DNA from: Thermodesulfovibrionales bacterium
GTDB taxonomy: Bacteria > Nitrospirota > Thermodesulfovibrionia > Thermodesulfovibrionales > SM23-35
NCBI GenBank assembly: GCA_031082155.1
Contig: JAVHLL010000015.1
Span: 1 to 56,816 of the forward strand
Length of the DNA: 56,816 nt
Reading direction: 5' to 3'
In this document: in pieces, positions 14,066 to 38,324 of the stretch
Position numbering within the stretch: position 1 is the stretch's first letter
How the letters are laid out: the number at the start of each line of letters is the position of its first letter
Position numbers and translations under genes: made by a program
Notes under the pieces: model-generated
What the model was told of the DNA's origin: nothing
The model's database searches: none
The model's input: the letters and a program-made list of their open reading frames with translations, nothing else

Positions 14066-14096
14066 AAAAAAAGAAGCCCGGAAGATCCCGGGCTTC
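14066..14096 (-). terminator. Intrinsic terminator of the multicopper oxidase operon
   Basis: Read on the minus strand, GAAGCCCGG-GATCTT-CCGGGCTTC is followed by a run of seven T. It ends transcripts coming from the giant surface protein gene and insulates the etfB operon downstream. Confidence 0.87.
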
Positions 14097-14123
14097 TCAC
14101 TAACTATTCCAAAACGTTTTCTC

Positions 14124-17100
14124 TTAGAAACCTGTCGATGATAGTCTTCCTTCAAAATCCTGACCTGCGAAGCTGGCATTTGTTATCGTGATATTTCTGC
14201 TTAAAGGAGAGAATATATACCCTGCCCTGCTCGGGGTCACTACATAACTGCCAGAGGCCAGTCCGGTAATCGTGTAATTTCCAGATATATTTGTAGTGAC
14301 AGTCCGACTAACAGCACCACTGAGTGCTATGGTGACACCTGCCAGATTACGTCCTCTGGAATCCTTCACGTTTCCAGAGATACTGTATACACTTGCAGAA
14401 GCAGTCCCGGTAAAGTTCTGTCCTGTTACATTCACACCGCTGATCGTCACCGCCCTGTTTACCGGTGTAAATGTGTAGCCTGCAAGTGACGGCGTTACTG
14501 TATACGCCCCGTTTGCCAGACCCGCAAAACTGTAATTCCCCAATGCATCAGTCGTAGTCGTTGCATTGGCTGCCCCGGTCAGGGTCATTGTAACCCCCGC
14601 TATCGGTATACCGCCGGCTGTAGCGACTGTTCCGGAGATCGAGTATGTTATCGCAGTAGGAGTCCCGGTAAAGTCCTGTCCTGTTACATTCGCACCGCTG
14701 ATCGTCACCGCCCTGTTTACCGGTGTAAATGTGTAGCCTGCAAGTGACGGCGTTACTGTATACGCCCCGTTTGCCAGACCCGCAAAACTGTAATTCCCCA
14801 ATGCATCAGTCGTAGTCGTTGCATTGGCTGCCCCGGTCAGGGTCATTGTAACCCCCGCTATCGGTATACCGCCGGCTGTAGCGACTGTTCCGGAGATCGA
14901 GTATGTTATCGCAGTAGGAGTCCCGGTAAAGTCCTGTCCTGTTACATTCGCACCGCTGATCGTCACCGCCCTGTTTACCGGTGTAAATGTGTAGCCTGCA
15001 AGTGACGGCGTTACTGTATACGCCCCGTTTGCCAGACCTGCGAAACTGTAATTTCCCGATGCATCAGTCGTAGTCGTTGTATTGGCTGCCCCGGTCAGGG
15101 TTATGGTTACTCCTGCTATCGGTAAGCCAACCGGTGTCCTCACGCTGCCGGAGATTAAATAAATGGTCCCTAAATAGAATTCATCCGCACCACTATCTAT
15201 TCCACCACCCGGATTCGGACGAGCCTGGCCATCATAATCTGCAGACAATTCTGCGAAAGCAAGTGGCCCGGTTCCCAAATCAATTACAGGGGAACCACTA
15301 TTGATATGGTAGTTACCAGAGGGTTTCACGGGAATAAATCTGACTGTTATTGCATTCCCGCCTTCATCAAGTACCGTTGCGGAAAAGAGCTGATTCAGAT
15401 ATCCGCCCAGGAAACCCGGATTTGCCGAAATATTTGAAGGCCCGTACCCTGCTACGTCACTGAGAATACAGTTCTGCGGATTTAATAATCCGGCTACGCC
15501 ACTCACCTGTAGATCCCATGCAGGCATTGCCGGATTTGGCGCCAGTCCCCCGGCCCCCGCGTTCAGAGTGTGATCATTATAGAAAGAACGGTTCTGCCAG
15601 AGAATATTATTCACAAGCGACGGATCAGAGTACATTTGTCCGGTTGCATCAGCCAGAGCTCCGCTATGAGCCGACGAAACGATCCCCGCACCTTGCGGAG
15701 TTGAATCAAGACTCCCTGCGGTAAATGCATTTGCAGCAGTCGCAGTACTATCGTTGTGTGCAATAGTGTTATTGATTATAGTGGACTCAGAAACATCCTG
15801 TATTGCTATGCCACCCCCTGCAAATCCTGCAACATTGTTCACGATCATGTTGTTGAATATGTTCAGAGAATAAGGTGTAGTTGTAACATCCTGTCCGTTA
15901 AACCACAGCGCCCTTATACCACCACCGCTTCCGGAGCCAGAGAGGTTGCCCTGAATCAGGTTGGCATTTACTGTCACATTACCGGCTCCATCCCCGAGAG
16001 CTCCCGGTATCGCTCCATTGGCTATTTCACCGCCGATATAGATACCCCCTCCGTCTCCGCCGATTGCCGCACCGAAGAATACCTCATTGAATGTTATCTG
16101 GTTGTTGACAATCATGCCGTTGTTGCTGAGGCCGTCATGAGCAATGCCTCCCCCGTTCCAGCGCGAGAGATTTCCGACGACGATATTTTTCATAACACGG
16201 TAATTATCACTGCCGCTTGTAATATCAATTCCGCCGGCTCCGAATACACCACCGTTCCCGGCAATTCTGTTATATTGGATGGTAATGTATCCATTATTCA
16301 AAACACCTGTGCCGATATCAGGCTGTCCTAAGGTTATACCTCCGCCATAGCTCCCCTGATTAGCCCTTACCTTGTTATTGCTTATCATAAGATGGTACGA
16401 CTGGTTATATGCACAGACTCCGCCACCCTGCACTGCTCCAAAAATCATGAACGCGTCAACAAGCGGTTTCGATGCAGGAGGAGGATCAAGCACAAATCCT
16501 GAGCCGGGCACATCTCCGAAGACCATGACGCCGGGGGCTTCGTTCGCTCGGAACGGATCGTTTCCGCGTATGGCGACAATCTTGTCATGCCATGCCGCCA
16601 GTTTTTCCTGAGGGCTGGGATTCGCATAAATAATCGTTGCATTCGGATCATTAATCGAAGCTCCTGCTCCCGAACCCTGTAATATTATATTCTTGTAAAG
16701 AATCACGTTCTCATGGTATGTTCCGGGGTTTACGAGGACGATGTCGCCTGGTGATGAGGCATCTATTGCTGCCTGTATGGACTGTCCGCTCGATACGTGG
16801 CGCCGGACAACCGTGCCGCAGTCAACAACATGGAGGGTAACCCCAATCTCCGACGAAATTTTATTGTCGCCACGGATTACCATTAATTGTCCTGTCTGTG
16901 TGCCTATCGAAACTGTTGCCCTGATTGTCGTATTTGACCAGCTATTGATAGAAAGCGCCTGTCCTCCAACCATCACTACTCCTCTGATTGTGCCAAAACC
17001 GTAGTTGCGTGTAATCAGAGTCGGGCTTCCCGGCACTGTTGGATCATAATCGGGGTTAGGCACCTGTACGGACCCTGCAGAAGTTATCGTGAGAGAACTT

Positions 17101-20063
17101 CTGGTGTTCGCACAGACAAGCGGTCCCCCTTCAGGCCCAACAACCTTGGATATTACCGGTGTTCCGGTAGGAGGTTCCATATCTGTTCCACCCTTCGGAA
17201 ACCCTACGAATGCAGCTATGGGAACAATCGGAGTGTCCGTATATGATGTCGTGCCCGGCATGAATTGGAATGTCCATGGGGCTATAGCATATTGCGGGTC
17301 ATAATACGGATCAACTGTACCATTGGGCAGGAACGGATGATTCAACACAATAGTTAACACATTCGGTGAAACACCCGAAGGTGCTGCTATATTCATTGTA
17401 TAGGTGGACGGCAACAGTGCATTATATGTGCCGAATTCGTCTGAATACACCCTGGTTACCTCGTTCCCCTGCCAGTCCTGATAGGAAATCGGAATCCATG
17501 CAGGTGCTGACTTCTCGCCAAAAATAGGACTGTTCGGGTCGAATTCAGCAGCAAGGTCGTTGTTCACAAATCCGACGTTCCTGGCAGCCTTGGGAACCTG
17601 AGTAAAGAAGAAGAAGTCCGCTGCGGTATTCTGCCCTTCGTCTACAAGAACCCATTTCCTGTCACAGAGATTTGTCTGCATTCCCGGGAACCATCCAAAC
17701 ACCTCGATAAATTCATTTGGGAACAGAGACAGATACTGGGGAACAGGATGCAGTCCTCCTACACATGGGGGAAGTGTAGCCGCCGGGACATAGGTCTCTC
17801 CGAAATCTACGTTCTTGTCTTCTTCTTTTAACAGTTCATATCCCGGAGGGGTAACAGCCTCAATTATATAGTGTCCGGTAGGAAGGCCATCGACTTCCGT
17901 ACTTCCGGAATCAAGGCCCCCAGGGAAATATGAAGTGAAAGCATATCCACCGTCAAAAAGTCCCGGCCGTACCTGGTTCCAGGTACCGAAATTATCAAAA
18001 CATTCATTGACCGGGATGCCGTTGATAACCGGCAGGGTCTGGATACACCCTGACGGAAGATTGTCATCCCAGCTATCAGTCGTTGCAACATTGATTGCAT
18101 CGCCTGCGTTAAATTGAGAATTCAGGTTTTCGTCTATATCTTCAGGACCGGGGAAGTTGCCAAAAGGATAATTATCTGCATCTGCCTTTGTGACAATGCC
18201 GTCTCCGGTTATATCATCGATGAGACCGTCAGAGTCCACATCTGCATAGAGATTAACCTGAACCCTCGGTATCCCGGGCTCCCAGGGTTCAGCTGCAGCC
18301 TGCGAAGGATCATTCTCGGCCCTGGTAACGGCATAGTAGACAATACCCGATATGCCGCCGTTTTCACTCTCCCCATAATTTGCCTTTCCCCAGTCTATTA
18401 CGTTCGTCTGATTCAGGAACAGATGCATTGCCTGTGTGAGAACAGGGCCTGTCTCTGTCCTTGAAAGATTATTACCCGTATTGGGGTTCACTGATGCCTG
18501 AGGCTGGGGGGTCAAGGCATTGAAAGAAGGCATGATCCAGGCATTTGCCGGTGGAATCTGTCCCCCGTAATCAATTGCAGTAGTAATGCCTGTAGCCTTC
18601 ATCGTTGCAAAATCAACCTCTGTGACAAGCCATTTAAAGAATGGGAATATTTCTGTCAGCCCATATTCACCAGACGGATCGGAAACGGTTGCCTGATAAA
18701 TCGAACCGTCCCTGAAACGTATATTGACGGCCTTATTCCCTATACCTATTTCATCATCCAAGGCAGGATCGTCACAAAATTCTGTTATACATACATCACA
18801 GGTCGGCGTAAAACAATCCCTGAACCCATTCTGGTTGTTATCCTGGAATACAGTGCCTTCCAGCGTTCCGAACCAGCGGAATGAAAGAACATTGCCCAGA
18901 TTAATGTCTGTAGCCGGGACGGTAACCGCATTAAACCCAAAGAGCGCGTCAAGTGGTCTGTCCCATGTCACCAGTTGATAGGCACCTTGCGGAACCCCCG
19001 GGATTGAGAAATAACTGTCTGCATCGCACGGAAGCGCGATAAGCCCTGTCTGGGATGCAACATCATTGAGACCTATCCAGCATTCCGACACTGGTGGTCC
19101 GGGAAAGAATCCCTGTGTAGTGGGAGGCCGGGAAAAATGATTAAAGACATTTCTCCCTGATATTGTGCTTCCGCCCGGTCCGCTTCCAACCCAGGGTAAT
19201 CCATTCGGATCAACAAATCCGATGAAAACATGGAAAAAGCCGGTACCGAACCCTTCAAAGAATCTCTCGGGTTCATTTGCCTTTACCCATGCATCGACAG
19301 TGAGCGTTCCCTCTATTGTTGCCGTCTGTATCCAATTCGTTCCAAGAGGTGGAACAGCCCTGAGACCATATTTTCCGGGCGGCAGGTTTCTGATTAAAGC
19401 TTCGCCATTGGCATCTGTGATAATCGCGCCGGTCCCGATGGTGTTGACCGATCCGTCAGGATTATAGGTCGTTCCAAGCGGGTTTCCGAACGCATCGTCA
19501 GAGACAGTCCCTCCGAAGTCAAATAACTTGACGGTAAACCCTGAAAGCACCCGTTCACCGGCGTCAAATACATTATTTATTGTGTTGTGGTCCTCAAAGA
19601 CAAGAACGGATATCTGGGCTGTGGGTATCGGCAACCGGTGGACCTTCAGTGTCACATTGCCGCTCACCGACTGGATGTTTGCTCCCCCCATTGTGAATCC
19701 GCTGCCTGGCAGCACGGATATGAAATATTTTTTAGTGGCATCGAGCGGCATTCCATTTACGTCCTGGGTAACAGTCACGCTATTTGTACCTGACATACCT
19801 TTATTGACAAGCGGTGCGTGGCTTTTGTGAATGTCTACCCCTATACTGTCATGCACCCTGATTCCGGGAGGCTTCTGATTTGTGTTGTCCTCCTCAAGAA
19901 CCCACTGGAATCCGTTCACCGGAAGAGTGCAAGCATTGTTCTCGTCGCACCCTACAACGTTGACGGTGAACGCCAGCGCATACTCATGTGAAAGCATACC
20001 GGCAAGAACCACCAGCGCAATCATAAAGAAGTATGCGAATTTTTTCGTTGAAAAGGTATTCAT
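14124..20063 (-). CDS. Giant secreted multidomain surface protein (SdrD-like, beta-helix, repeat domains)
   Basis: 1979 residues from the ATG at 20063, chosen because AAAGGAGGAG lies eight bases upstream. A signal peptide ends near SHEYALA (~31). Then come SdrD/CNA-B-like modules (VFEDHNTINNVFDAGER, VFQDNNQNGFRDC, ~135-850), with a calcium-loop-like DVDSDGLIDDITGDG at ~608. An IPT/TIG-like region follows (~1000-1080), then a right-handed parallel beta-helix (~1086-1628, beginning SIQAAIDASSPGDIVLV). The C-terminus holds four ~86-residue carboxypeptidase-regulatory-like repeats. It ends QDFEGRLSSTGF, close to the end of the neighbouring cupredoxin protein. No sortase LPXTG motif or transmembrane tail is seen. 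Last gene of the multicopper oxidase operon; probably a surface scaffold. Function inferred only. Confidence 0.85.
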   Translation of the reverse strand: MNTFSTKKFAYFFMIALVVLAGMLSHEYALAFTVNVVGCDENNACTLPVNGFQWVLEEDNTNQKPPGIRVHDSIGVDIHKSHAPLVNKGMSGTNSVTVTQDVNGMPLDATKKYFISVLPGSGFTMGGANIQSVSGNVTLKVHRLPIPTAQISVLVFEDHNTINNVFDAGERVLSGFTVKLFDFGGTVSDDAFGNPLGTTYNPDGSVNTIGTGAIITDANGEALIRNLPPGKYGLRAVPPLGTNWIQTATIEGTLTVDAWVKANEPERFFEGFGTGFFHVFIGFVDPNGLPWVGSGPGGSTISGRNVFNHFSRPPTTQGFFPGPPVSECWIGLNDVASQTGLIALPCDADSYFSIPGVPQGAYQLVTWDRPLDALFGFNAVTVPATDINLGNVLSFRWFGTLEGTVFQDNNQNGFRDCFTPTCDVCITEFCDDPALDDEIGIGNKAVNIRFRDGSIYQATVSDPSGEYGLTEIFPFFKWLVTEVDFATMKATGITTAIDYGGQIPPANAWIMPSFNALTPQPQASVNPNTGNNLSRTETGPVLTQAMHLFLNQTNVIDWGKANYGESENGGISGIVYYAVTRAENDPSQAAAEPWEPGIPRVQVNLYADVDSDGLIDDITGDGIVTKADADNYPFGNFPGPEDIDENLNSQFNAGDAINVATTDSWDDNLPSGCIQTLPVINGIPVNECFDNFGTWNQVRPGLFDGGYAFTSYFPGGLDSGSTEVDGLPTGHYIIEAVTPPGYELLKEEDKNVDFGETYVPAATLPPCVGGLHPVPQYLSLFPNEFIEVFGWFPGMQTNLCDRKWVLVDEGQNTAADFFFFTQVPKAARNVGFVNNDLAAEFDPNSPIFGEKSAPAWIPISYQDWQGNEVTRVYSDEFGTYNALLPSTYTMNIAAPSGVSPNVLTIVLNHPFLPNGTVDPYYDPQYAIAPWTFQFMPGTTSYTDTPIVPIAAFVGFPKGGTDMEPPTGTPVISKVVGPEGGPLVCANTRSSLTITSAGSVQVPNPDYDPTVPGSPTLITRNYGFGTIRGVVMVGGQALSINSWSNTTIRATVSIGTQTGQLMVIRGDNKISSEIGVTLHVVDCGTVVRRHVSSGQSIQAAIDASSPGDIVLVNPGTYHENVILYKNIILQGSGAGASINDPNATIIYANPSPQEKLAAWHDKIVAIRGNDPFRANEAPGVMVFGDVPGSGFVLDPPPASKPLVDAFMIFGAVQGGGVCAYNQSYHLMISNNKVRANQGSYGGGITLGQPDIGTGVLNNGYITIQYNRIAGNGGVFGAGGIDITSGSDNYRVMKNIVVGNLSRWNGGGIAHDGLSNNGMIVNNQITFNEVFFGAAIGGDGGGIYIGGEIANGAIPGALGDGAGNVTVNANLIQGNLSGSGSGGGIRALWFNGQDVTTTPYSLNIFNNMIVNNVAGFAGGGIAIQDVSESTIINNTIAHNDSTATAANAFTAGSLDSTPQGAGIVSSAHSGALADATGQMYSDPSLVNNILWQNRSFYNDHTLNAGAGGLAPNPAMPAWDLQVSGVAGLLNPQNCILSDVAGYGPSNISANPGFLGGYLNQLFSATVLDEGGNAITVRFIPVKPSGNYHINSGSPVIDLGTGPLAFAELSADYDGQARPNPGGGIDSGADEFYLGTIYLISGSVRTPVGLPIAGVTITLTGAANTTTTTDASGNYSFAGLANGAYTVTPSLAGYTFTPVNRAVTISGANVTGQDFTGTPTAITYSISGTVATAGGIPIAGVTMTLTGAANATTTTDALGNYSFAGLANGAYTVTPSLAGYTFTPVNRAVTISGANVTGQDFTGTPTAITYSISGTVATAGGIPIAGVTMTLTGAANATTTTDALGNYSFAGLANGAYTVTPSLAGYTFTPVNRAVTISGVNVTGQNFTGTASASVYSISGNVKDSRGRNLAGVTIALSGAVSRTVTTNISGNYTITGLASGSYVVTPSRAGYIFSPLSRNITITNASFAGQDFEGRLSSTGF
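14404..15177 (-). repeat. Three tandem 258-bp repeats inside the giant gene
   Basis: Copies start at 14404, 14662 and 14920, exactly 258 bases (86 codons) apart. Copies one and two are almost identical at the DNA level except near the first 30 bases; the third diverges toward 15177. Each encodes one carboxypeptidase-regulatory-like beta-sandwich. A more diverged fourth unit lies at 14124-14403. Confidence 0.92.
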
Positions 20064-20124
20064 TTCAACTCCTCCTTTGTTTTCCATTCAAAATCTGTCA
20101 TTTTCGCCATAAATATAACGCTCA

Positions 20125-22203
20125 TTATGGTGTTGAGCTTATCTTTCCTTCAAATTCCTGGCCGGTAATGTTCTGATTTGTTATTGTGACAGTCCTGCTT
20201 AGCGGAGAAAAGACATATCCGGTTTTGCTCGGATTCACCGTATATGTACCGGGCAACAACCCGGAGAACTGGTAATTACCGAGTGCATCCGTGAGCATAG
20301 TCATGGTTGCAGCTCCGGTCAGCCTCATTGTTACTCCGGACATCAGCCGGCCGTTTGAGTCCTTTACATACCCGCGTATAAAATATGTCGCCGCTGCGGT
20401 CCCTGTAAAGTTCTGGTTCGTTACGTTTGCATTACTTATCGTCACATTTCTGTTTATAGGAGTAAATGAATACCCTGTCAGACTTGGGGTAACTGTGTAC
20501 GCACCGTTTGTCAGACCTGCGAAACTGTAATTTCCCGATGCGTCAGTCGTAGCCGTTGCATTGGCTGCTCCGGTCAGGGTCATCGTGACCCCCGCTATCG
20601 GTGTACCGCCGGCTGTAGCGACTGTTCCGGAAATCAAGTATGTCAAAGGACTACCGGTGAAGTTCTGGCCTGTCACATTCGCATTGCTGATCGTCACCGC
20701 CCTGTTTACCGGTGAGAACGTATAGCCTGCAAGAGACGGTGTTACTGTATACGCACCGTTTGTCAGACCTGCGAAACTGTAATTTCCCGATGCGTCAGTC
20801 GTAGCCGTTGCATTGGCTGCTCCGGTCAGGGTCATCGTGACCCCCGCTATCGGTGTACCGCCGGCTGTAGCGACTGTTCCGGAAATCGATGCTCCGATAC
20901 CCCCTGTAAAGGTTGCAGTGACTGACTTGGCCGCATTCATAGTTAAGGTACACGTTCCAAGCCCCGTGCAGTCACCGGACCATCCGGCAAAGGAAGAAAC
21001 CGCTGCTGCGGTGGCAGACAAAACAACCGATGTACCGTCATTAATAAGTTCTGTACAGTCCACATTCCCCATCCCGCAATTGATACCACCCGGAATACTG
21101 ACAAGCTCGACCTTACCCGTTCCAGTCCCTGCCAGGTTCACAGTGAGGAGATATTGCGTGGCAGATTGTACCATGAGATATCTGAACATGCCGCCTGGTG
21201 AAGCTGCTGCGTTGGTCAGATAAAGTCTTCTGTCGTAGAGAGGATAATACCCCGCCGATGGCGCCGATATAAGAACATCAGCGGTTTTCCCGGCCGAAAG
21301 GTGAAGAGAGTATTGATCTTTTTGATAAGGATAGAGTTTTCCGTCCTCAGCGATAATTTTTACATAAAATCCCTGAAAAACCGGCACATGGTCATCGAGT
21401 CCTGCATTCAAGAACCGTAGTAACGTAGTTTGTGTTGGTGTCCCTATTGGTATGGCACTTTCTCCATACGTAAAAGGTTTTCCATTGATGAGAAAATATT
21501 TCGGATTATAATGGATTGTGCTGGTTGGATTCGCACCGTATGTCCCTGCAGCAACCGCAGTATGGATTACCGGATCTATCTCACTGAATACAAGCGTAAG
21601 ATCGATATCATATGATATTGCAGGATATGCCTGCAGAGGCGGGCCGGCTGCTGCATTCACCTCTAGGACTCCGAACAGCCCCATCTGTATCTGAACAGAT
21701 GGATGGGTTGCGCTCTGATAAAGGTATGTTCCTGCTTTGATATTGTTCCACGTATAGGTAGCGGTACCGCCTCCCTGGGCAGCTTCATGGGCAAAGGACC
21801 TCACCCTTTGCGTCACGGAGATCCGGTTTCCGCTTGAGCCATCGGTCCACGTCGGCGTCATAACAGCTATCTGGCCGGGGATATGGATCGATACAGGTTC
21901 TGTGTAAAGACCTGTCAGATTATTTTGAACATGGAGATTTACTGTATCCCCTGCCAGCGCATTTATCTGCGGTCCCGGCACTGAAGGCAATTGTCCGGGC
22001 AGAGGAGTATACGTATTGTCCGTCTGGACAAACCCCCACATGGTGATCATCTGGCCATCCGGCATTGTGACTGTGAATGTATCCGCCCTCAGATATACAT
22101 CCACGACAGCTGCAGAAGATACCTGCAGCATAACAGTCAGGACGAAGAATAAAGACAGGAGTATCTTCATCCCTGCTCTTCTATTCATGGTACATGTATC
22201 CAT
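20125..22203 (-). CDS. Cupredoxin-fold multicopper-oxidase-like protein lacking copper ligands, with repeat tail
   Basis: 692 residues with signal peptide (ends near VSSA). Residues ~35-350 align by pattern with the two downstream-type multicopper oxidases in this operon, but the copper motifs are degenerate: VSIHIPGQ replaces the HWHG site and YLYQSATHPSVQIQMGLFG replaces the HCH...M site. An InlB/Ig-like module follows (AGWSGDCTG...VTATFTG, ~360-440), then three carboxypeptidase-regulatory-like repeats, ending QEFEGKISSTP. AAGGAGG precedes the ATG. The gap to the previous gene is eleven bases. It probably serves as a structural subunit or adaptor linking the oxidase to the surface. An independent enzymatic role seems unlikely. 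Confidence 0.78.
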   Translation of the reverse strand: MDTCTMNRRAGMKILLSLFFVLTVMLQVSSAAVVDVYLRADTFTVTMPDGQMITMWGFVQTDNTYTPLPGQLPSVPGPQINALAGDTVNLHVQNNLTGLYTEPVSIHIPGQIAVMTPTWTDGSSGNRISVTQRVRSFAHEAAQGGGTATYTWNNIKAGTYLYQSATHPSVQIQMGLFGVLEVNAAAGPPLQAYPAISYDIDLTLVFSEIDPVIHTAVAAGTYGANPTSTIHYNPKYFLINGKPFTYGESAIPIGTPTQTTLLRFLNAGLDDHVPVFQGFYVKIIAEDGKLYPYQKDQYSLHLSAGKTADVLISAPSAGYYPLYDRRLYLTNAAASPGGMFRYLMVQSATQYLLTVNLAGTGTGKVELVSIPGGINCGMGNVDCTELINDGTSVVLSATAAAVSSFAGWSGDCTGLGTCTLTMNAAKSVTATFTGGIGASISGTVATAGGTPIAGVTMTLTGAANATATTDASGNYSFAGLTNGAYTVTPSLAGYTFSPVNRAVTISNANVTGQNFTGSPLTYLISGTVATAGGTPIAGVTMTLTGAANATATTDASGNYSFAGLTNGAYTVTPSLTGYSFTPINRNVTISNANVTNQNFTGTAAATYFIRGYVKDSNGRLMSGVTMRLTGAATMTMLTDALGNYQFSGLLPGTYTVNPSKTGYVFSPLSRTVTITNQNITGQEFEGKISSTP
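20501..20887 (-). repeat. Exact 135-bp duplication within repeat domains
   Basis: Positions 20501-20635 and 20753-20887 are identical over 135 bases, 252 bases apart (84 codons). They encode consecutive repeat domains very like those of the giant protein at 14404-15177, so the two genes share a mobile or converting repeat unit. Confidence 0.9.
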
Positions 22204-22214
22204 TTGTATCCTCC

Positions 22215-23537
22215 TTACTCTGCAGGCAAAATGACTGACGGATATTCAACGGATGCCCATGTCATCATTCCACCGGGGAAAATATTATTCGTTGTCAGCT
22301 CTTTTTCATTATGGGAATGCCACATGAAGAATAGACCTGCAGTCGGATTCAGACCGCCTTCCCCTGGAGGTAGAGCACCCGGAGAACCGATATACGGACT
22401 GCCGCTGTAAAATATGCCAAAAGTCAGATCATTCTGGTCCGGCAGTCCAACAGGCAAAGGTTTTCCGTGATTGGGGCAGTATTCCTTTGTTACAGGATCA
22501 AAATTATCGGGTCCCGGGTTACAGGTATGAGAGGTAGTTCCATAAATATCCCAGCCGATATTCTCACCTGTCCAGGTAAATAAAGCATCCGTTGTCTGGC
22601 CGGGTGCAACTGTCGTGGTAAATAAGCCTTCGGATAAATCTTCGCCTGCAGGACCTTTCAGAATCCTCCCATCCCTTGCAATCACATAGTGCTGATTCCC
22701 ATGCATGTGGTGAGGATGGAGATCCCTAACCCCACCTATCATTCTCACGAGGATTTTTTCACCCGGATGCATCCTTGCCATTGCGCTGTATGGCTGGTAC
22801 GGAAGATAGGGTGCAAAATTCTTCGCTACGGTATCGAGCCCTGCACGGCCGTTTATGAACCAGTACACAGGATATGCTATCGTGTTGTCCACATTTGCGG
22901 TTTTATTCAACAAAACAAGATCATGGATCGTGTGATCAATGTCGGTGAGGAGCTGCAGGTATTCTCTGTGATAACAGGAATCGACAGTATTGTATGCGCA
23001 TCCTGCAAATCCTGCCGGCGTGGTAATCGCTGCAGGCCTTACGATCAGTGCACCCAAAAGGCCCATTTCCACCTGTAATTCCGGCCTTGTTCCGCTATAG
23101 TAGATATACGTTCCCGGTTCGCTTGCCGCAAACGTATAAGAAACACTTCCTCCGGGTGGTGCTTCGCGGGTAAGCATACCGGGCACACCACCAACGGCAT
23201 TAACATTATTCTGTCCCGGGAAGACAATAGAGACCGGTACAGGAAGAGTATTTGTCAAATTTACGGTTACCGTCTGCCCCTGATTGACAATTAGGGTGGG
23301 ACCGGGATACTGGAATCTTACTCTTGCGGTAGATGCATTCGCAAACCCCCACATGAATATGCTTTTCCCGTCATCTGCTATGATATTGCCTTTCATGGCT
23401 CTCAGATTGAAAGTCGGACCGCTGATACCATAAATCTTGGCATCGGCCTGCTGGACTCCAAAAAGGAAAACAAGCGCCAGAATGACGAGTGCTTCCATGA
23501 TATTAATTTTTTTTATCATCATTATTTCCTCCCTCAT
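22215..23537 (-). CDS. Multicopper oxidase homologue carrying only the second half of a trinuclear copper site
   Basis: 440 residues with a signal peptide ending near QQADA (33). Two cupredoxin domains. Domain 1 (~45-170) has lost the ligands: VSIVFPGQ (~102-109) for HWHG and YIYYSGTRPELQVEMGLLG (~144-162) for the HCH site. Domain 2 keeps HPHHMHG (His277 and His279 as the likely pair) and WHSHNEKE (His407, His409), the histidine pairs of a domain without type-1 copper. It therefore seems to need a partner domain to complete a trinuclear centre; the first gene of the operon encodes one. Good ribosome-binding sequence at both ATG 23537 and ATG 23522. Confidence 0.85.
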   Translation of the reverse strand: MREEIMMIKKINIMEALVILALVFLFGVQQADAKIYGISGPTFNLRAMKGNIIADDGKSIFMWGFANASTARVRFQYPGPTLIVNQGQTVTVNLTNTLPVPVSIVFPGQNNVNAVGGVPGMLTREAPPGGSVSYTFAASEPGTYIYYSGTRPELQVEMGLLGALIVRPAAITTPAGFAGCAYNTVDSCYHREYLQLLTDIDHTIHDLVLLNKTANVDNTIAYPVYWFINGRAGLDTVAKNFAPYLPYQPYSAMARMHPGEKILVRMIGGVRDLHPHHMHGNQHYVIARDGRILKGPAGEDLSEGLFTTTVAPGQTTDALFTWTGENIGWDIYGTTSHTCNPGPDNFDPVTKEYCPNHGKPLPVGLPDQNDLTFGIFYSGSPYIGSPGALPPGEGGLNPTAGLFFMWHSHNEKELTTNNIFPGGMMTWASVEYPSVILPAE

Positions 23538-23564
23538 TTCGTTCCTCCTCCAAAATATTTCCTG

Positions 23565-24752
23565 CTATGGAGAAATAACAATCTCGGTCATCATACCGCC
23601 GAAATCTTCCTGATCGTTGCTCAGTTCGTTCAAATTGCTGGTATAGAGAAAAAATCGCTGAGGTGCTGCTATTGGTCCGATAACCGATGTATCTATAAGC
23701 ACATCAGCTGACTGTCCACCCCCAAGGGTGATGGAATTCGTCTCATAATAAAGGTCGTGTCCTGCAGTACCCCGCAGCAGCATCGCATCCTTGCCTACCA
23801 CCTTCATGGGAAGGTTCGGAGAGATCAGGGTATAGAATCTCACAGTTGCCAAACTGGAAATACGCAGGAGCAGCATATCGCCCCACTGAGCTTCTATTAA
23901 TGAAGGCAGATTCTGGGACGGCTTGAAATTATTCTCCGCACTTGTGCCGAGCGTAGTTGAAGGGTTTATCGTATCAGGATATCCCCTGCCGTTTATCAGC
24001 GGATAGGTGTCTTCCATTGCAGCAAAGGGAAGCGGCTGAACATTCAGGTTGGCGTCATGGAACAAAGGATCGATAGACGTTATCTGTATCGGATAGTCTT
24101 TGGTATATCCTGTCGAACCGTCCTCGTCGTTGTAGGCAAATTGCGTAAAACCATTCAGGAGCTGTCCGTCCTGAAGAGGAGTCACGTAGAGAGTTCCCAG
24201 CATTCCCATTTGCATGTGCTCTGTTGCTTCAACATGGCAATGGTACATGTAAGTCCCCGGACCCGGCACCTGATAGTAATAGGTCAGACTCGCATTCGGG
24301 TTAATTGCTATCGATGCCATTGGTTCGCCGTCAAATACAGTCGCTGCATTCGGAAATCCGTGCCAGTGAACGGTGTGAGGGTCGAAAAGGTCCGGACGCA
24401 TCGACATCGGAAGCGTCGTCAATGTCAGATAAAACTCCTGCCCTTCCTTCACCTTGATAAGCGGAGCAGGTATTCTTGCATCAAGCTCAGCGGTAACGAG
24501 GATCTGATCAAGCGGGAGTTGGTTGGTAACATCGCTGAAGCCGAAAGTATAGAGAACCCTTCCGTCGGCCATTGTTGCAAATCCGTCGCTACCTGTGATG
24601 TGCTTGCAGATAACATTCGGATTCGCAGTATTCCCCTGGTCATCAATAATGGTATAGGGGCATTGAACGGATACTGCCGCTTCAGATATGGCCATTCCCA
24701 AAATGAGAACAGCGAGCAGGGAAAAGAGAATTATTAACCTTGCCTTGTTCAT
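23565..24752 (-). CDS. Multicopper oxidase homologue with type-1 copper site and first half of trinuclear site
   Basis: 395 residues from the ATG at 24752 (AAAGGAG upstream; signal peptide MNKARLIILF... ends near ISEAA). An upstream in-frame ATG at 24830 also has AAGGAG but would bury the signal. Domain 1 contains DPHTVHWHG (His126, His129, His131) and YHCHVEATEHMQMGM (His171, Cys172, His173, His179, Met184), which are type-1 copper ligands plus four trinuclear histidines. Domain 2 has no HxH pairs. Two-domain multicopper oxidases need both sets. Known roles of such enzymes include Mn(II), Fe(II), Cu(I) or phenol oxidation; the substrate here is unknown. First gene of the operon. Confidence 0.88.
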   Translation of the reverse strand: MNKARLIILFSLLAVLILGMAISEAAVSVQCPYTIIDDQGNTANPNVICKHITGSDGFATMADGRVLYTFGFSDVTNQLPLDQILVTAELDARIPAPLIKVKEGQEFYLTLTTLPMSMRPDLFDPHTVHWHGFPNAATVFDGEPMASIAINPNASLTYYYQVPGPGTYMYHCHVEATEHMQMGMLGTLYVTPLQDGQLLNGFTQFAYNDEDGSTGYTKDYPIQITSIDPLFHDANLNVQPLPFAAMEDTYPLINGRGYPDTINPSTTLGTSAENNFKPSQNLPSLIEAQWGDMLLLRISSLATVRFYTLISPNLPMKVVGKDAMLLRGTAGHDLYYETNSITLGGGQSADVLIDTSVIGPIAAPQRFFLYTSNLNELSNDQEDFGGMMTEIVISP

Positions 24753-25284: not shown

Positions 25285-25313
25285 TTGAAGGCACCCCAAT
25301 AATTTGCTAATCT
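25285..25313 (+). promoter_or_regulatory. Possible sigma-70 promoter of the YtkA-like gene
   Basis: TTGAAG (25285-25290) and TAATCT (25308-25313) are 17 bases apart, about 70 bases before the ATG at 25385. Confidence 0.4.
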
Positions 25314-25384
25314 TATATGAACCAATTTACAAAAACGGGAACCATTTAATCGTTCTTTATGGTATCCAAATTAAGGAGGCATAC

Positions 25385-25825
25385 ATGAGATCATTCATCA
25401 TGGTTTTGGTTATTTGCTCATTTTTTCTCCCCACCGCTATTTCACTAAGTGCGGGAACAGGTTCTCCGGAAGAACCATCGGTTGTCCTCACCAAGCCTAC
25501 AGAGAATAAGCTTTTTACTGTTGAGATTCGTCTTTCCAGAAAAAACCTTGTGGTGGGACAAAACAGCGCGACACTCTTTCTTTGTGATGATAAGCAAAAC
25601 AGCATAAACGGCGCTGAGGTGAGGGTTCTGCCTGTTATCACCGCCCATGGCGAAAGCACCTCGCCCAGACCGTTTGTGCAGGAAAAATCAGACGGTAACT
25701 ACTCCGTTGAGAACCTCTATATTGATATGGAAGGAAACTGGACATTAAAAATCATGATACGAAAAGATGGAATTTCCGACAATGTTTCTTTTGATTTCCC
25801 GGGTGTAAAAAGAAGAGCACCTTAA
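25385..25825 (+). CDS. Secreted YtkA-like protein
   Basis: 146 residues from the ATG at 25385, preceded by AAGGAGG; an earlier in-frame start at 25304 has none. A signal peptide (MRSFIMVLVICSFFLPTAISLSAG) leads into a beta-sandwich like the YtkA/FixH-type domain (VEIRLSRKNLVVGQNSATLFL ... NWTLKIMIRKDG). Such domains often accompany copper-handling genes. It stands between the multicopper oxidase operon and a NosL/ABC operon and has a distant paralogue at 30324. No copper-binding Met or His cluster is evident, so the role is inferred from context. Confidence 0.7.
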   Translation: MRSFIMVLVICSFFLPTAISLSAGTGSPEEPSVVLTKPTENKLFTVEIRLSRKNLVVGQNSATLFLCDDKQNSINGAEVRVLPVITAHGESTSPRPFVQEKSDGNYSVENLYIDMEGNWTLKIMIRKDGISDNVSFDFPGVKRRAP

Positions 25826-25858: not shown

Positions 25859-26863
25859 TTAATAGCCCTTCAACATCAGCGGGGATGAGATCATAGCATA
25901 GGTTGCCACTGCACTGAAGAGGAAATATGAGATAAGCGTGACGGCAATTAATTTCCTTTGAGTCACAGGGACAGCATCATTCAGGCTCTCTATGGTACGG
26001 AAAGATGCAAGCACCCCAACTCCAGACCCTGTTACCGCAGCACAGAGGAGCGGGAGATAAAAAACATAACCGAGGTAGCGATACTCTCTCTGGAGCATGC
26101 AAAACGGACAGTGATGGGTAGGAAGTTCATAGAGATAAAGAGAGAAAAATGAGATGACTGCAGCTATGGATATCAGGAAGGTTATCCCGCTTGCAAGGGA
26201 AAACAGCACTCCTTTACTGTTTTCCTTCCACAGGAAAATAAACCCGGACATGAAAGTACATGCAATGCTGGAATAAAACGCTATCTTAAGCGGAATCACC
26301 GGCAATGAAGCCAGTTCAGAAGCAACAGTGCCCTCTCCGCTACTGAACTGGCTGCCGCAGCATGAAGTGATAAGGTCTGCTTTCATCCCCGCGAAATACA
26401 GTCCCTGAATCGCTGCCTCCAGGAAAACAAATGGCGTTATTACAAGCAGCAACGCATATTTTTTTTTTATTAGCGGATAGTCATATGCCCTGTTATCTAC
26501 ATAATTAACGATCAGCCAGAGACCCGCGAGAATAAAATTGACCATCTTCAGGATGAGTGCAGGATAACCGTATTCGTTTACGTTCAACGTTCCGGCAGCG
26601 CACATCGCGCCGACAAAAAGTTCGTGGAGACGGTCGGCAGTAAAAATGAACAGAAAAAAAGACGCAAGCTGAAACCAGAGCACATACATCATTAAGGTAG
26701 AAATGAGATAGGTTTTGCGCTCCAGATTCAATTGAAGCTCGCTCCCGCTCCTGATATCCCAGCTCCTGAAAATGGATACCCCGAAGAATGCCGATAGCAG
26801 AAGCATAACGCTCACCATAAGAGATCCGGCAATGAGTGCAATGACCGCGGGATGAATGATCAC
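25859..26863 (-). CDS. Polytopic membrane protein with DsbB-like CxxC motif
   Basis: 334 residues, GTG start overlapping the ABC ATPase stop as GTGA. About eight to nine hydrophobic helices are visible. HHCPFCMLQREYRY (~250) recalls the redox CxxC of DsbB/VKOR-like proteins, and TSCCGSQF (~167) offers another cysteine pair. It is not a recognised transporter family. Position at the end of the NosL-NosL-permease-ATPase cluster suggests work on copper or thiol redox at the membrane. Function unknown. Confidence 0.72.
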   Translation of the reverse strand: MIIHPAVIALIAGSLMVSVMLLLSAFFGVSIFRSWDIRSGSELQLNLERKTYLISTLMMYVLWFQLASFFLFIFTADRLHELFVGAMCAAGTLNVNEYGYPALILKMVNFILAGLWLIVNYVDNRAYDYPLIKKKYALLLVITPFVFLEAAIQGLYFAGMKADLITSCCGSQFSSGEGTVASELASLPVIPLKIAFYSSIACTFMSGFIFLWKENSKGVLFSLASGITFLISIAAVISFFSLYLYELPTHHCPFCMLQREYRYLGYVFYLPLLCAAVTGSGVGVLASFRTIESLNDAVPVTQRKLIAVTLISYFLFSAVATYAMISSPLMLKGY

Positions 26864-27546
26864 GCTCTGTTTTCCGAACCTGTTATTGTCCCGTCGCGCA
26901 TTTCGACGACGCGGTCTATAATTTTACAATCGTATACAATAGGGTCGTGGCTCGCAATAAGAACTGTCTTGCCTCTGCTCTTCATCTCGCCGAGGATGTC
27001 CATAAATTCCTCCGACAGTTTTGTATCGAGGTGAGCAGTTGGTTCATCCGCGATGATCACTTCAGGGTCGTTCATAAGTGCGCGGGCGATGCTCACCCGC
27101 TGGGCCTCTCCTCCTGAAAGCCACTCGATTTTCGATTTGGCTTTATCCTCAATCTTGAGAATATCCAGAATCTGAAGCGTCCTTTTCTTCATAGTTCCGT
27201 ACGGATCTCCACAGGGAAAAGCTGGAAGCATCACATTCTCGATCACAGACAATCCTTTTATGAGGTTGAACTGCTGGAACACAAAACCGAACGTCATACG
27301 TCTGGTCCCGGTGAGAAATCTCTCCGGCAGGCTCGTGATCTCTTTGCCATTGACCAGGACCCTCCCTGCCGTTGGCCTGATCATGCAGCCGATGATGCTG
27401 AGGAGCGTCGTCTTTCCTGATCCGCTCGGTCCTTTCAGGACAGTCACTCTTCCGGGGTCTATTGACATACTGATATTCCTGAGTGCGGTAAATTCATTCT
27501 GTTTTCCCGCATTGTAGACCTTTGTGACCGCGGACAGTTGTATCAT
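26860..27546 (-). CDS. ABC transporter ATPase, MacB/LolD subfamily
   Basis: 228 residues. Walker A GPSGSGKTT (~39), Q-loop FVFQQFNLI, signature LSGGEAQR (~144), Walker B VIIADEPTAHLD and the H-loop IASHDP are complete. The partner permease gene lies 19 bases upstream. MacB/LolD ATPases power mechanical transmission across the periplasm or release of lipoproteins rather than classical import. With NosL genes next door, delivery or removal of copper at envelope proteins is a reasonable inference. Confidence 0.95.
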   Translation of the reverse strand: MIQLSAVTKVYNAGKQNEFTALRNISMSIDPGRVTVLKGPSGSGKTTLLSIIGCMIRPTAGRVLVNGKEITSLPERFLTGTRRMTFGFVFQQFNLIKGLSVIENVMLPAFPCGDPYGTMKKRTLQILDILKIEDKAKSKIEWLSGGEAQRVSIARALMNDPEVIIADEPTAHLDTKLSEEFMDILGEMKSRGKTVLIASHDPIVYDCKIIDRVVEMRDGTITGSENRA

Positions 27547-27565
27547 AGGGAAAGCCCTCCCATAG

Positions 27566-28699
27566 TCATAACCGCATTACAGAATCGGGGTCTATCGTTG
27601 CAGCCCTCCATGAAGGGATTATAGTCGCAACGGTATACGGGGCAACCGTAAGAAAAAAGATCGTTGTTATTTGAAACATATCAAGGAATGGTACGAGCCT
27701 GAATTCAGGGTAAAGAACAGACCACCCTTTCAACACCGGCATGAAGAGAAAAGCCGAAGCGAAATAAATATGGATATACGCGAAGAACACGCCGAGGAAG
27801 AATGCGGAAAGCGAAATAATTAAACCTTCCCACGTTTTCATGAAAAGCACGTCTGATGTCTCCCATCCGATACCTTTCAATATCCCTATTTCTTTTTTCT
27901 CCTCTGAACTCAGTCCGGTTGCTTTATCCCATGCAAATATTATGAACGCGAATGCGGCTCCTGAAATGACTGCAAGGAGAATGCCGCTACGCCAATCGAA
28001 AATCGCTTCATAAGTTCTCATTATCTCATTTCTTGTTATCGGCCTCGTATCAGGCAGTATTCGCCGGATCTTGTCAGTTATAGCCTGCAGTTCCCTCGTA
28101 TTTCTTACCTTAAGGATCATATCCGTATAGAAACCTTTCTGCATTCCCGTCACTTTCCTGAAATCATACTCGGAGAGCAAGATAAGATCAGAGGATACGA
28201 TTTCAGAATCAGGGGAGAGAATATCGGCGACTTCCAGACTCGTGTAGGAACCGTCAAGAGTTTTGAAAGGAAGAATATCTCCTTTCCCCGCGAGAAAAGT
28301 TTTTGAGACGCCATTGCCGATAACAATATATCCGGGACCGTATAGGAACTCATCAGGGACGACGAACGTGTAATTCGCCTGTACACCCGGTTCAAAGTAA
28401 TATCCCCACAACCGCCCTTTCACCTCCTGAACTCCCCTGATGGATTTGAGCTGTCCGATATACTGTTCCGGGATAAGATCATGCCTGCCGGCGATTGTTC
28501 TCTGCACAACGACCTCCGGGCTGTTTTCCAAAAGGATTTGGGATTCTCTTTTGATCGATTCTGATGAAAAAATAATCGAGGAAACAAGAAAAATTATACC
28601 GGTGTAGACAACGAAAAGGGCCGAGTTTTTCCCTTTGCGCCTCAACAGTGAGTTGAGGGCAAAGTCCAGAATATTTCTCTGTTTATTGATCCAACCCAT
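27566..28699 (-). CDS. FtsX/MacB-like ABC transporter permease
   Basis: 377 residues from the ATG at 28699, which overlaps the end of the upstream small gene by 17 bases. An N-terminal helix (~20-40) is followed by a periplasmic domain (~45-245) and three C-terminal helices with the FtsX pattern (EEKKEIGILKGIGWETSDVLFMKTWEG). It pairs with the ATPase at 26860. The start rests on coupling, since no strong Shine-Dalgarno is present. Confidence 0.9.
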   Translation of the reverse strand: MGWINKQRNILDFALNSLLRRKGKNSALFVVYTGIIFLVSSIIFSSESIKRESQILLENSPEVVVQRTIAGRHDLIPEQYIGQLKSIRGVQEVKGRLWGYYFEPGVQANYTFVVPDEFLYGPGYIVIGNGVSKTFLAGKGDILPFKTLDGSYTSLEVADILSPDSEIVSSDLILLSEYDFRKVTGMQKGFYTDMILKVRNTRELQAITDKIRRILPDTRPITRNEIMRTYEAIFDWRSGILLAVISGAAFAFIIFAWDKATGLSSEEKKEIGILKGIGWETSDVLFMKTWEGLIISLSAFFLGVFFAYIHIYFASAFLFMPVLKGWSVLYPEFRLVPFLDMFQITTIFFLTVAPYTVATIIPSWRAATIDPDSVMRL

Positions 28700-28994
28700 A
28701 AGAGTGAATATGTGAAGGAGGGAAAACAATAGCCCCGGACGGGAAATGCTCAAACGACATCGGATGGTCCTGGAATGCCGTATGCAGATCAGCCATTGAA
28801 GGGTGACGGGTATAACGGGCATCAGTGAACAGGCTGAGGTCGGTGAGATGAAGTCCCCTTACCATTCTGGCTTTCGCCTGAATGTTTGGCATTGCATGCC
28901 TTACGGAAAAAGCGGCATGAACGGTCATGAGCAGCAGGAGCATTAAACAGATCACCAAGAAAGCTATAAAGAAGTCTGACTTGCGGGACAGCAT
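28683..28994 (-). CDS. Small membrane-anchored protein of the NosL/ABC cluster
   Basis: 103 residues. An N-terminal helix (FLVICLMLLLLMTVHAAF) anchors a short extracytoplasmic domain with many histidines (for example DLHTAFQDHPMSFEHFPSG and PPSHIHSYG). Its ATG overlaps the NosL stop (TAATG) and its end overlaps the permease start. The tight packing in the cluster makes it a genuine gene. Histidine and methionine content would suit copper binding, but no named family is claimed. Confidence 0.75.
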   Translation of the reverse strand: MLSRKSDFFIAFLVICLMLLLLMTVHAAFSVRHAMPNIQAKARMVRGLHLTDLSLFTDARYTRHPSMADLHTAFQDHPMSFEHFPSGAIVFPPSHIHSYGLDQ

Positions 28995-29467
28995 TAATCG
29001 AGGCCTTCGATCGTTTTTGGCGTTATATCCTGAAACTTCAGGATGGCGTTACCCTTGTGGTCCCTCATGAATTCCCGGGCGTCAGAGTAGTTCCTGAACA
29101 GAATAAGTTCACGACCCATGGGGCCGTATACATCACTCCCTATCACATAGAATGCTTTTCGGCCGTCTATGAGGACCAAGTCATAATAATCTGTGCCATA
29201 AAGTGAATCAATCTCCTCATGTGTCTTTTTCGGATTGTATTTTTGCAGGTTGAAATAGTATTTGAACATATCTTTTACCCCATCGAATACCGCATATGAA
29301 CCATCCCGGAAAATAATCTCAGCGACGAAGTCAGGGTATTTCGCTACGAACATCCCGCATACCGGGCACTTGTCTTTTTGTGCCGGGGTCAAAGGTTTCT
29401 TTTGTCCGGCTACAGCAGGCACTGTTACAATATAAAGCATGACAAGAGTGATTATCCAAATTCTCAT
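28994..29467 (-). CDS. nosL: NosL-like copper-binding protein
   Basis: 157 residues from the ATG at 29467 (GGAGAAG upstream); a TTG at 29485 is a weaker alternative. Signal peptide ends near VPAVAG. The NosL motif CPVCGMFV (~36-43) is present, with the FRDGSYAVFDGVKDMFKYYF region that follows in the family. NosL is a periplasmic Cu(I) chaperone for nitrous oxide reductase. There is no nosZ here, so it may serve other copper proteins, possibly the multicopper oxidases. No lipobox cysteine is seen. Confidence 0.88.
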   Translation of the reverse strand: MRIWIITLVMLYIVTVPAVAGQKKPLTPAQKDKCPVCGMFVAKYPDFVAEIIFRDGSYAVFDGVKDMFKYYFNLQKYNPKKTHEEIDSLYGTDYYDLVLIDGRKAFYVIGSDVYGPMGRELILFRNYSDAREFMRDHKGNAILKFQDITPKTIEGLD

Positions 29468-29657
29468 TCTCTTCTCCCGGTTCAACTTTCCAAAGAGGAA
29501 GGAAATCCTTACTTCTCCGGTCGTTCAGTCTATTTAGATTCTATTCATACCGTATGATTCCGATAAAAAATCGTCATTCTCTCGAAGGCGGAAATCGAGT
29601 AGTTTCAATGCCCGGTCAAGCCGTACAATGACAAATTATGAAGGCTATAAACAGACT

Positions 29658-30164
29658 CTATTTATGCTCCATTTTCTTCATTTTCATCATTTTTCGCTTA
29701 TCACGGATCATTTTCGTATCGGCATACATATCCTCATATGCAGCCTTCATCGCTTCATCAAAGGTAGCGGCAACGCCTCCGTTTTCCTTCATGAAAGCCT
29801 CTGCATCACTTTTATTCTCAAATGCCCATTTCGGTCTCTTGGTCATTACTCCGGGTTTATTCCCCCCTATGACCCACGGTGCTTTCTCAGCGTCAATCAG
29901 TTTTTTTGTGTTATAGTCCCCGACGTGTATCTTCACCGGAGTCTTATCAATATGAAGAGCAAGCTCCAGGGAGGCACAGTGAATACTGCAAAACCCCTGC
30001 TTTTTGCCGTCGTCATATTCTATAACCATCCAGCTGTGTCCGAATTTTTCCTTCTCCATGCCGCAGAACGGACATGCATCTTTGCCATGTGTTTCCGCAA
30101 AACCAATCGAACTCATGCAGAGCACCAAAGAAATCGTGATAAGTACCATCGCGCTTCTTTTCAT
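29658..30164 (-). CDS. Second NosL-like protein with Met/Lys-rich tail
   Basis: 168 residues, signal peptide ending near IGFA, strong GAAGGAGG. It carries CPFCGMEKEKFGHSW (~31-45) and a second cysteine pair FCSIHCAS (~58-65). The tail KMMKMKKMEHK is rich in methionine and lysine, suited to copper. It resembles NosL-like and copper-sensor-related small proteins. It is separated by 190 bases from the first NosL gene and divergent from the YtkA-like/CusBA genes. Confidence 0.85.
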   Translation of the reverse strand: MKRSAMVLITISLVLCMSSIGFAETHGKDACPFCGMEKEKFGHSWMVIEYDDGKKQGFCSIHCASLELALHIDKTPVKIHVGDYNTKKLIDAEKAPWVIGGNKPGVMTKRPKWAFENKSDAEAFMKENGGVAATFDEAMKAAYEDMYADTKMIRDKRKMMKMKKMEHK

Positions 30165-36611: not shown

Positions 36612-36613
36612 AC

Positions 36614-38212: not shown

Positions 38213-38324
38213 GGGGAACCTTTTTACTGACTTATTAAAGATAGTAATATATGGATCAGGGAAAATACAATTCCTGCACTTTGAGTAAAGGTGCAGTATC
38301 CTTAATTTGTCTGGAGGTGCTACA

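Follow-up and report, generated by a model that had tools for sequence, protein, structure and literature searches.

A Putative Heteromeric Multicopper Oxidase with a Divided Active Site and a Giant Secreted Partner in a Thermodesulfovibrionales Bacterium

Introduction

A stretch of 56,816 nucleotides from a Thermodesulfovibrionales bacterium of the phylum Nitrospirota (contig JAVHLL010000015.1 of assembly GCA_031082155.1; genome of 2.65 Mb in 56 contigs), referred to here as the window, carries four adjacent genes on its minus strand that we designate A, B, C and D in the order of their transcription. A, B and C encode cupredoxin proteins in which Pfam detects Cu-oxidase domains, and D encodes a giant protein. 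Why should three oxidase-like proteins be encoded side by side with such a partner, and is each of the three an enzyme in its own right? We suggest, with a probability of about 0.72, that A, B and C form a single heteromeric oxidase that is derived from type C two-domain enzymes, has its active site divided between chains, and is held by D.

A preliminary description of the locus had proposed a co-oriented and tightly linked unit of secreted proteins with a giant partner, a view that is upheld by the gaps between the genes and by their signal sequences. The four co-oriented open reading frames (ORFs), as listed, are separated by 27 base pairs (bp; A/B), 11 bp (B/C) and 37 bp (C/D), and Sec-like N-terminal signal sequences can be read by eye on all four proteins. 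Gene A (23565..24752) encodes a two-domain cupredoxin protein of 395 amino acids from the ATG at 24752, which is preceded by aaaggag (421 amino acids as listed); gene B (22215..23522) encodes a second such protein of 435 amino acids from position 23522 (440 as listed); genes C (20125-22203) and D (14124-20087) encode proteins of 692 and 1987 amino acids, respectively.

Division of the Copper Ligands between A and B

A multicopper oxidase needs a type-1 copper, ligated by two histidines, a cysteine and usually a methionine, and a trinuclear centre of eight histidines, four of which are contributed by each of two cupredoxin domains (PMC3600357). Two-domain oxidases are trimers in which the trinuclear centre is formed where domain 1 of a chain meets domain 2 of the adjacent one, and those of type C carry the type-1 copper in the N-terminal domain (PMC13151041). 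The ligands were counted in 90 distinct A sequences (that of the window and 89 others) and 90 B sequences, from an alignment that left out identical sequences, loci L001-L002, and ORFs that scored below 100 bits or better for another subunit; the same score rule excluded L023-L032, which were studied apart.

Domain 1 of A possesses all type-1 copper ligands and four of the eight trinuclear histidines: H126, H129, H131, H171, C172, H173, H179 and M184 are each present in 90/90 sequences, with H129, H131, H171 and H173 as the trinuclear four. They are arranged in two motifs, H126-x2-H129-x-H131 (PHTVHWHG; 24360..24377, minus strand), which aligns with PHTIHWHG of the oxidase in PDB entry 3g5w, and H171-C172-H173...H179...M184 (24201..24242, minus strand), which likewise aligns with that protein. 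Domain 2 of A has no ligand set. The other four trinuclear histidines, H272, H274, H402 and H404, are found in domain 2 of B, which lacks the cysteine and has two motifs: H269-x2-H272-x-H274 (HPHHMHG; 22701..22718, minus strand) aligns with HAIHTHG of 3g5w and is present in all 88 sequences with letters at these positions (2 gaps), and H402-x-H404 (WHSH; 22311..22319, minus strand) aligns with IHDH and is present in all 85 (5 gaps). In an alignment of the whole family this last motif is misplaced, an insert in B being the probable cause, and other alignments were used there. Domain 1 of B has no ligand set. Comparison with an intact relative shows the loss of the sets from the second domain of A, from the first domain of B and from both domains of C, whose cupredoxin part (residues 1-360; 21124..22203, minus strand) thus contains no domain with a complete set of copper ligands. 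Two acidic residues beside the ligands of A, D141 and E175, are kept in 90/90 sequences; acids adjoining the ligands are used by oxidases that reduce O2.

Because the half-sites sit on different chains, neither A nor B nor C can build the centre as a homo-oligomer, and since no single chain has the full trinuclear set, the notion of three independent oxidases can be rejected. The three proteins had initially been described as resembling multicopper oxidases; this is correct for their fold, but as oxidases it does not hold for all three, given that the copper-site residues are confined to A and B and amount to one site. Judged by the ligand count, only A and B together would be able to build a complete trinuclear site, and exactly one. 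We consider it highly likely that they have this site in common.

Folds and Family Membership

The best match in the PDB for the profiles of A, B and C is in each case 3g5w (E values of 6.8e-24, 2.5e-20 and 6e-20, respectively), the blue copper oxidase of Nitrosomonas europaea, whose domain-1 ligands align to A and whose domain-2 ligands align to B. The profile of C aligned over positions 70-336 with 3g5w, so that the full cupredoxin core is covered. AlphaFold2 models of the single chains reached a predicted local distance difference test (pLDDT) score of 90.6 for A and 93.6 for B; the least certain part of the A model is the loop past motif 1, where residues 134-136 fall under 50. For both models, 3g5w and the metagenomic laccase 2zwn are the top structural matches and align nearly end to end: the A model matches them with Z scores of 29.1 and 29.1 at a root-mean-square deviation (rmsd) of 2.0 over 265 and 264 residues, the B model with Z scores of 30.2 and 30.6 at an rmsd of 2.7 and 2.5 over 276 and 275 residues. 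Judging by the aligned ligands, we take both to be of type C. The N-terminal type-1 copper ligands typical of this type are found in A and are missing from B and C, and none of the three chains has both trinuclear half-sites.

Several known families were considered and rejected. The scores for the CopA/PcoA family (TIGR01480) are 42.6 (A), 53.5 (B) and 35.9 (C) bits against a cut-off of 478.95, those for copper nitrite reductase (TIGR02376) are 35.0, 34.1 and 24.3 bits against a cut-off of 296.3, and membership in the ascorbate oxidases also lies far under the curated cut-off.

Occurrence and Gene Order

With A as the query, 127 relatives were found in 84,980 species genomes, and the best 80 loci were kept. 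In 59 of these 80, the genes stand on one strand in the order D-A-B-C, of which the order in the window, A-B-C-D, is a rotation. D and A are joined in one frame at five loci (L063, L082, L095, L096, L101) and C and D at three (L107, L110, L112); further C-D fusions were found in Cupriavidus, Paraburkholderia and the genomes G001, G020 and G272. B is spread over two frames at one locus (L090), the listed order at L076 deviates because one frame overlaps, L068 has a short D match on the opposite strand, and 10/80 loci are without one or more parts, many of them on short contigs.

Of 395 genomes of Nitrospirota, 20 contain A (E<=1e-20), the same 20 contain B (E<=1e-50), and 24 contain the N-terminal part of D. 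In G186, a genome of the same taxonomic order as that of the window, the A and B frames are equal in length to those of L047. At the same thresholds, neither A nor B was found in the 14 other members of the family to which the window belongs; in one of these, D lies at a contig end. It had been proposed to look for the operon in Nitrospirota and Geobacter-like genomes, and it was found again in both. Cupriavidus metallidurans CH34 and Paraburkholderia possess A, B and a C-D fusion in which all ligands are kept, at 38-40% identity of A; in the record of P. largidicola all of these proteins are annotated as hypothetical.

The tree of A shows 23 changes of phylum label against a least possible number of 7, and since phyla are thus mixed in it, the A-B-C-D cassette probably moves across phyla, although genome bins can mislead in this respect. 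Mirror-tree correlations (A-D) range from 0.41 to 0.59, with a maximum of 0.29 under the null model; these values fit co-inheritance, but transfer of the cassette alone would yield the same.

The Giant Protein D

Three parts can be distinguished in D: a conserved N-terminal region of about residues 1-1100 (16788..20087, minus strand) without a solved relative, a region of about residues 1104-1640 (15168..16778, minus strand) that may form a NosD-like right-handed β-helix, and a C-terminal part with four CarboxypepD_reg repeats in Pfam (14124..15167, minus strand). The β-helix and the SdrD-like modules that had been ascribed to the giant protein at the outset are both recovered in a restricted sense. 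A NosD match covers residues 1104-1146 with 25.8 bits, far under the cut-off of 300, and is joined by a weak match to a choice-of-anchor Q family, also under its cut-off; the residue pattern of the region agrees with a β-helix, and the region is conserved among homologs. SdrD_B matches are present in D and are confined to its C-terminal repeats. Repeats of the CarboxypepD_reg/SdrD_B kind also end C (three, versus four in D), whose tail (20125..21123, minus strand) contains an InlB-like segment in addition.

A sequence search of the PDB gave no relative of D at E<=0.01, so D could not be assigned to a structured family in this way. Compared with the window copy, D is 42-61% identical over about 1600 residues in 60 loci, with many invariant residues. 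Its conservation would hence exceed the needs of a mere stalk, and its in-frame fusions to A or C would tie it to the complex. We consider it likely that D is bound to the oxidase.

Origin of A, B and C

An A-like query found matches in 43 of the 395 Nitrospirota genomes at E<=1e-12, many of which are the known A proteins; the motifs were read in the 20 loci returned and in additional stretches that were fetched. Four genomes (G269, G016, G253, G124) contain two-gene pairs in which a B-like gene, with domain-2 ligands only, precedes an A-like gene with domain-1 ligands only. Ten intact single-chain relatives have both halves; L133, a frame of 285 amino acids with domain 1 only, was left out of these controls. 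In a tree of 50 rows, the intact and the split proteins are separated with support of 100/99, B and C are sisters (98/92), and the B proteins of the pairs join B and C (99/94); a first tree agrees on B, C and the pair-B proteins. The simplest order of events that these data suggest would lead from a homomer to a split into A and B and then to C as a dead copy of B.

The two-gene split oxidases at L121, L122, L148 and L149, B-like and then A-like, are distinct from the A-B-C system. By their motifs, these pairs would represent another natural way of dividing the site, and two of them are followed by a gene for an NHL propeller. One of these two, L149, also has a YtkA-SCO1 fusion behind it, together with a MofC-like protein and with a permease that is a relative of one in the window. 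In the stretches read, no C was found near the distant B-A pairs.

Neighbouring Genes and Copper Supply

In most other genomes, relatives of a small secreted protein, encoded in the window by gene E (35261..35722, minus strand), are found directly past the operon, namely in 53/60 loci that leave room of 700 bp or more. A gene for a subtilase (S8 protease) lies past the operon at 33/47 loci with room. Directly past D in the window, at 14071..14098 on the minus strand, there is a terminator-like stem of 12 pairs with a T-run. The single terminator postulated previously is accordingly present as a structure, and of the 10 terminator-like sites on the two strands it is the longest, but the number of such sites equals chance (10 versus 10.7). 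A promoter scan (27 matches versus 18.6 expected) was not informative.

A YtkA-like secreted protein (25304..25825, plus strand), one of two YtkA proteins near the operon, is related to the YtkA part of the fusion at L149. It is followed by a polytopic membrane protein of 334 amino acids, an ATP-binding cassette (ABC) ATPase and an FtsX-type permease (25859..28822, minus strand), a trio that recurs beside the operon elsewhere (at 7, 6 and 5 loci, respectively), and by two NosL-type proteins (28994..30164, minus strand), likely periplasmic copper carriers. A CusB/CusA-type pair is also present. The neighbouring copper genes that had been pointed out early on thus recur in part; CusAB was dismissed as a conserved partner, being adjacent at only one other locus (L039). 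SCO1 occurs in 18/80 loci, and a cytochrome c/periplasmic-binding protein occurs in 17/80; at L107, SCO1 sits past E. The NosL/ABC genes and SCO1 may be read as alternative routes of copper supply.

Genes for type II secretion flank 8/80 loci, and in the window a GspB-like gene (T2SSB) and a GspA-like gene (AAA+, C39-like, peptidoglycan-binding) adjoin E (35844-38452). Such neighbours would fit delivery to the cell surface. Farther along, a protein with an unusual signalling architecture combines PilZ, cyclic-nucleotide-binding and Ser/Thr kinase domains (38586-40352), and two proteins of the DsrE_2 family (42609-43061 and 44907-45356) are encoded on opposite strands on either side of an A+T-rich stretch. 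In CH34, two tandem genes for similar proteins (L113, 25803-27461) lie between E and the gene for a MofC-like cytochrome, the first with a sub-threshold LolA-like match; proteins that by eye resemble this pair are encoded in Paraburkholderia (L114).

A Possible Role in Metal Oxidation

The metal-oxidizing function that had been proposed for the operon finds support from outside in a cluster of Sideroxydans lithotrophicus ES-1, Slit_1812-1818, whose proteins, by proteomics, were more abundant when the medium contained magnetite than when it contained Fe(II)-citrate; its authors proposed a role in the oxidation of solid Fe(II) (PMC12016527). Three tandem ES-1 genes had been noted before (PMC5566968, section 13). 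The cluster encodes two cupredoxins with oxidase motifs, a larger third one that is free of motifs and has adhesin/polysaccharide-lyase-like domains, small proteins, SCO1 and a cytochrome, and similar clusters were named in Paraburkholderia (PMC12016527). This layout, known to us by description rather than by sequence, matches that of A and B with a fused C-D, and Slit_1812-1818 probably belongs to the same family in the C-D fused form. Much of the same gene content is found in CH34 (A, B, the C-D fusion, E, a LolA-like protein and a MofC-like cytochrome); no clear SCO1 was found in the CH34 stretch. The window differs from the ES-1 type in that C and D are separate and that neither an SCO1 above the cut-off nor the cytochrome was found in the genome. 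Since the cluster layouts match, metal oxidation is plausible, if unproven; as a matter of judgement, we rate the chance that the oxidation of Fe or Mn is the main role at somewhat less than even.

Proposed Assembly and Alternative Explanations

From the ligand sets, the co-occurrence of the genes, the fusions and the predicted folds of A and B, we infer the following course. The ancestor of A, B and C would have been a type C two-domain multicopper oxidase, normally a homotrimer. The chains would then have specialized, A keeping an active domain 1, B keeping an active domain 2, and C becoming a copper-free copy of B. By the trimer rule of two-domain oxidases, an A-B-C ring would therefore give one centre, the trinuclear site lying where A and B meet, along with a single type-1 site in A; that C is the third member of this ring appears fairly likely. 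The ring would be held by D, receive its copper after Sec export from NosL/ABC proteins in the window organism or from SCO1 elsewhere, and come to lie on the cell surface. An external donor, for which a reduced metal, Fe(II) for instance, is the likeliest candidate, would pass single electrons to the type-1 site of A, and O2 would be reduced to water at the A/B site.

Could A and B instead act apart, A carrying electrons by its type-1 copper and B binding copper, so that they would neither have a common trinuclear site nor reduce O2? Neither chain alone has the full set, and cytochrome and SCO1 genes are frequent neighbours of the cluster, so that electron transfer without O2 is conceivable. 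Yet all eight trinuclear histidines have been kept, together with D141 and E175 of A, which would be needless in a plain electron carrier, and the distant B-A pairs keep the same split; we therefore regard separate functions as improbable. A cuprous oxidase for copper tolerance, comparable to CueO or PcoA, is suggested by the CusB/CusA and NosL genes that adjoin the operon in the window and by the existence of a relative in C. metallidurans. Such a function is unlikely in view of the solitary second case of CusAB adjacency (L039) and of TIGR01480 scores far under the cut-off; a huge secreted partner is not known to be typical of CueO or PcoA either.

The part played by C and D might also be smaller than we envision. 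Since C is missing from the stretches read around the distant B-A pairs, assembly of A and B probably does not require it; the enzyme might be A2B or AB2, and C and D might make up an adhesive stalk of their own. We hold this to be rather unlikely, because C keeps both cupredoxin domains, aligns with 3g5w over the full core, and is retained with A and B nearly everywhere, often fused to D. That C and D are ordinary surface proteins merely travelling with the oxidase on mobile cassettes would agree with the patchy distribution over phyla and the 23 label changes on the A tree (at least 7 being required). In-frame fusions of D to A (5/80) and of C to D (3/80 and further genomes), however, join these proteins physically, and the extent of identity in D (42-61% over about 1600 residues in 60 loci) likewise makes this explanation quite improbable.

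A number of observations weigh against the heteromeric oxidase that we favour. Many of the hosts are anaerobes, to which an O2-reducing enzyme is less well suited, and the AlphaFold2 models cover single chains, the A-B-C complex itself being deduced. The conservation figures, which also include relatives from the phylum, are biased towards close members because the loci are the best 80 of 127 matches to A. Remnant histidines persist at one position in domain 1 of B (48/90) and at one in domain 2 of C (50/87), and the placement of the pair-A proteins in the tree is weak (90/68). The likeness to Slit_1816-1818 is one of layout, not of compared sequences. D occurs without A and B in 4/395 genomes, its frame running into a contig end in three of these, and in G303 (L116, 7877-14924) it is directly followed by E while A, B and C were not found, possibly a solitary unit or an assembly gap. 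The C-D gene of G020 is about 7 kilobases from A and B. In the window, E is not adjacent to D; its genome has no match to the S8 protease or the MofC-like cytochrome, and a single, sub-cut-off match to SCO1.

We give an even chance to the broader proposal that these proteins represent an unrecognized class of heteromeric oxidases, which would have arisen by duplication and reciprocal loss of half-sites, turning a homotrimer with three centres into an A-B-C complex with one, a non-covalent counterpart, derived from type C, of six-domain oxidases like ceruloplasmin; it would have begun as a B-A pair, gained the dead C, and spread across phyla as a metal-oxidizing surface complex with a giant scaffold. 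If true, this would be a natural case of an obligate heteromeric enzyme originating by duplication and reciprocal loss inside a ring, of which apparent intermediates are extant (the intact homomer, the B-A pair, A-B-C, and A-B-C accompanied by a fused or separate D). The proposal would also provide a mechanism for a cluster that proteomics has linked to growth on solid Fe(II), in organisms of several phyla. A, B and probably C would need to be expressed jointly, and either A or B alone should look inactive. Annotation as hypothetical proteins, as in one Paraburkholderia record, hides the system.

Comparison with Known Systems

In the excerpted literature on split or heteromeric oxidases, SdrD, MofA/Mnx, Cupriavidus, Nitrospirota and Sideroxydans, we found no divided ligand sets in bacterial oxidases; the term "heterodimeric laccase" exists, with several cases fungal by title. 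The excerpts of PMC10734462, PMC12442390 and PMC8788666 contain nothing useful on copper terms, and those of PMC9040806 and PMC10732223 contain general mentions only. The Slit_1812-1818 proteins are treated as separate cupredoxins, and divided ligand sets are not mentioned in the excerpts of the two papers concerned (PMC12016527, PMC5566968). The new element here would be that A, B and C act jointly as one oxidase whose active site is divided; the metal idea is partly anticipated in the literature.

The Mnx complex of Bacillus (MnxE3F3G) is likewise a multicopper oxidase that needs partner subunits and performs mineral-forming metal oxidation, but MnxG is the sole oxidase of its operon, and its partners MnxE and MnxF, both small, have no known homologs (PMC5622069). 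OmpB and MofA resemble the present system as large secreted oxidases with an adhesion-type domain, encoded near a MofC-like cytochrome and SCO1 (PMC5566968, section 13); unlike A and B, each is a single-gene oxidase (PMC5566968).

In the six-domain oxidases (ceruloplasmin, hephaestin and bacterial proteins), six cupredoxin domains retain at most one trinuclear centre, the other sites having been lost (PMC3600357), and in this respect A-B-C, whose ligand count allows exactly one, would be alike. Each six-domain enzyme is a single chain that carries type-1 copper in its even-numbered domains and has the centre between domains 1 and 6 or 2 and 3, whereas A-B-C would comprise three chains with the type-1 copper in the first domain of A; no A-B fusion was found among the best 80 of the 127 loci, and the six domains are encoded by three separate genes. 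The type C two-domain oxidases, represented by the N. europaea enzyme 3g5w and the metagenomic laccase 2zwn, share with A and B the ligand motifs and, presumably, the rule that the site is built between chains. They are homotrimers and have both halves on each chain, whereas in the A/B/C system the halves are found in different genes and the third copy is empty.

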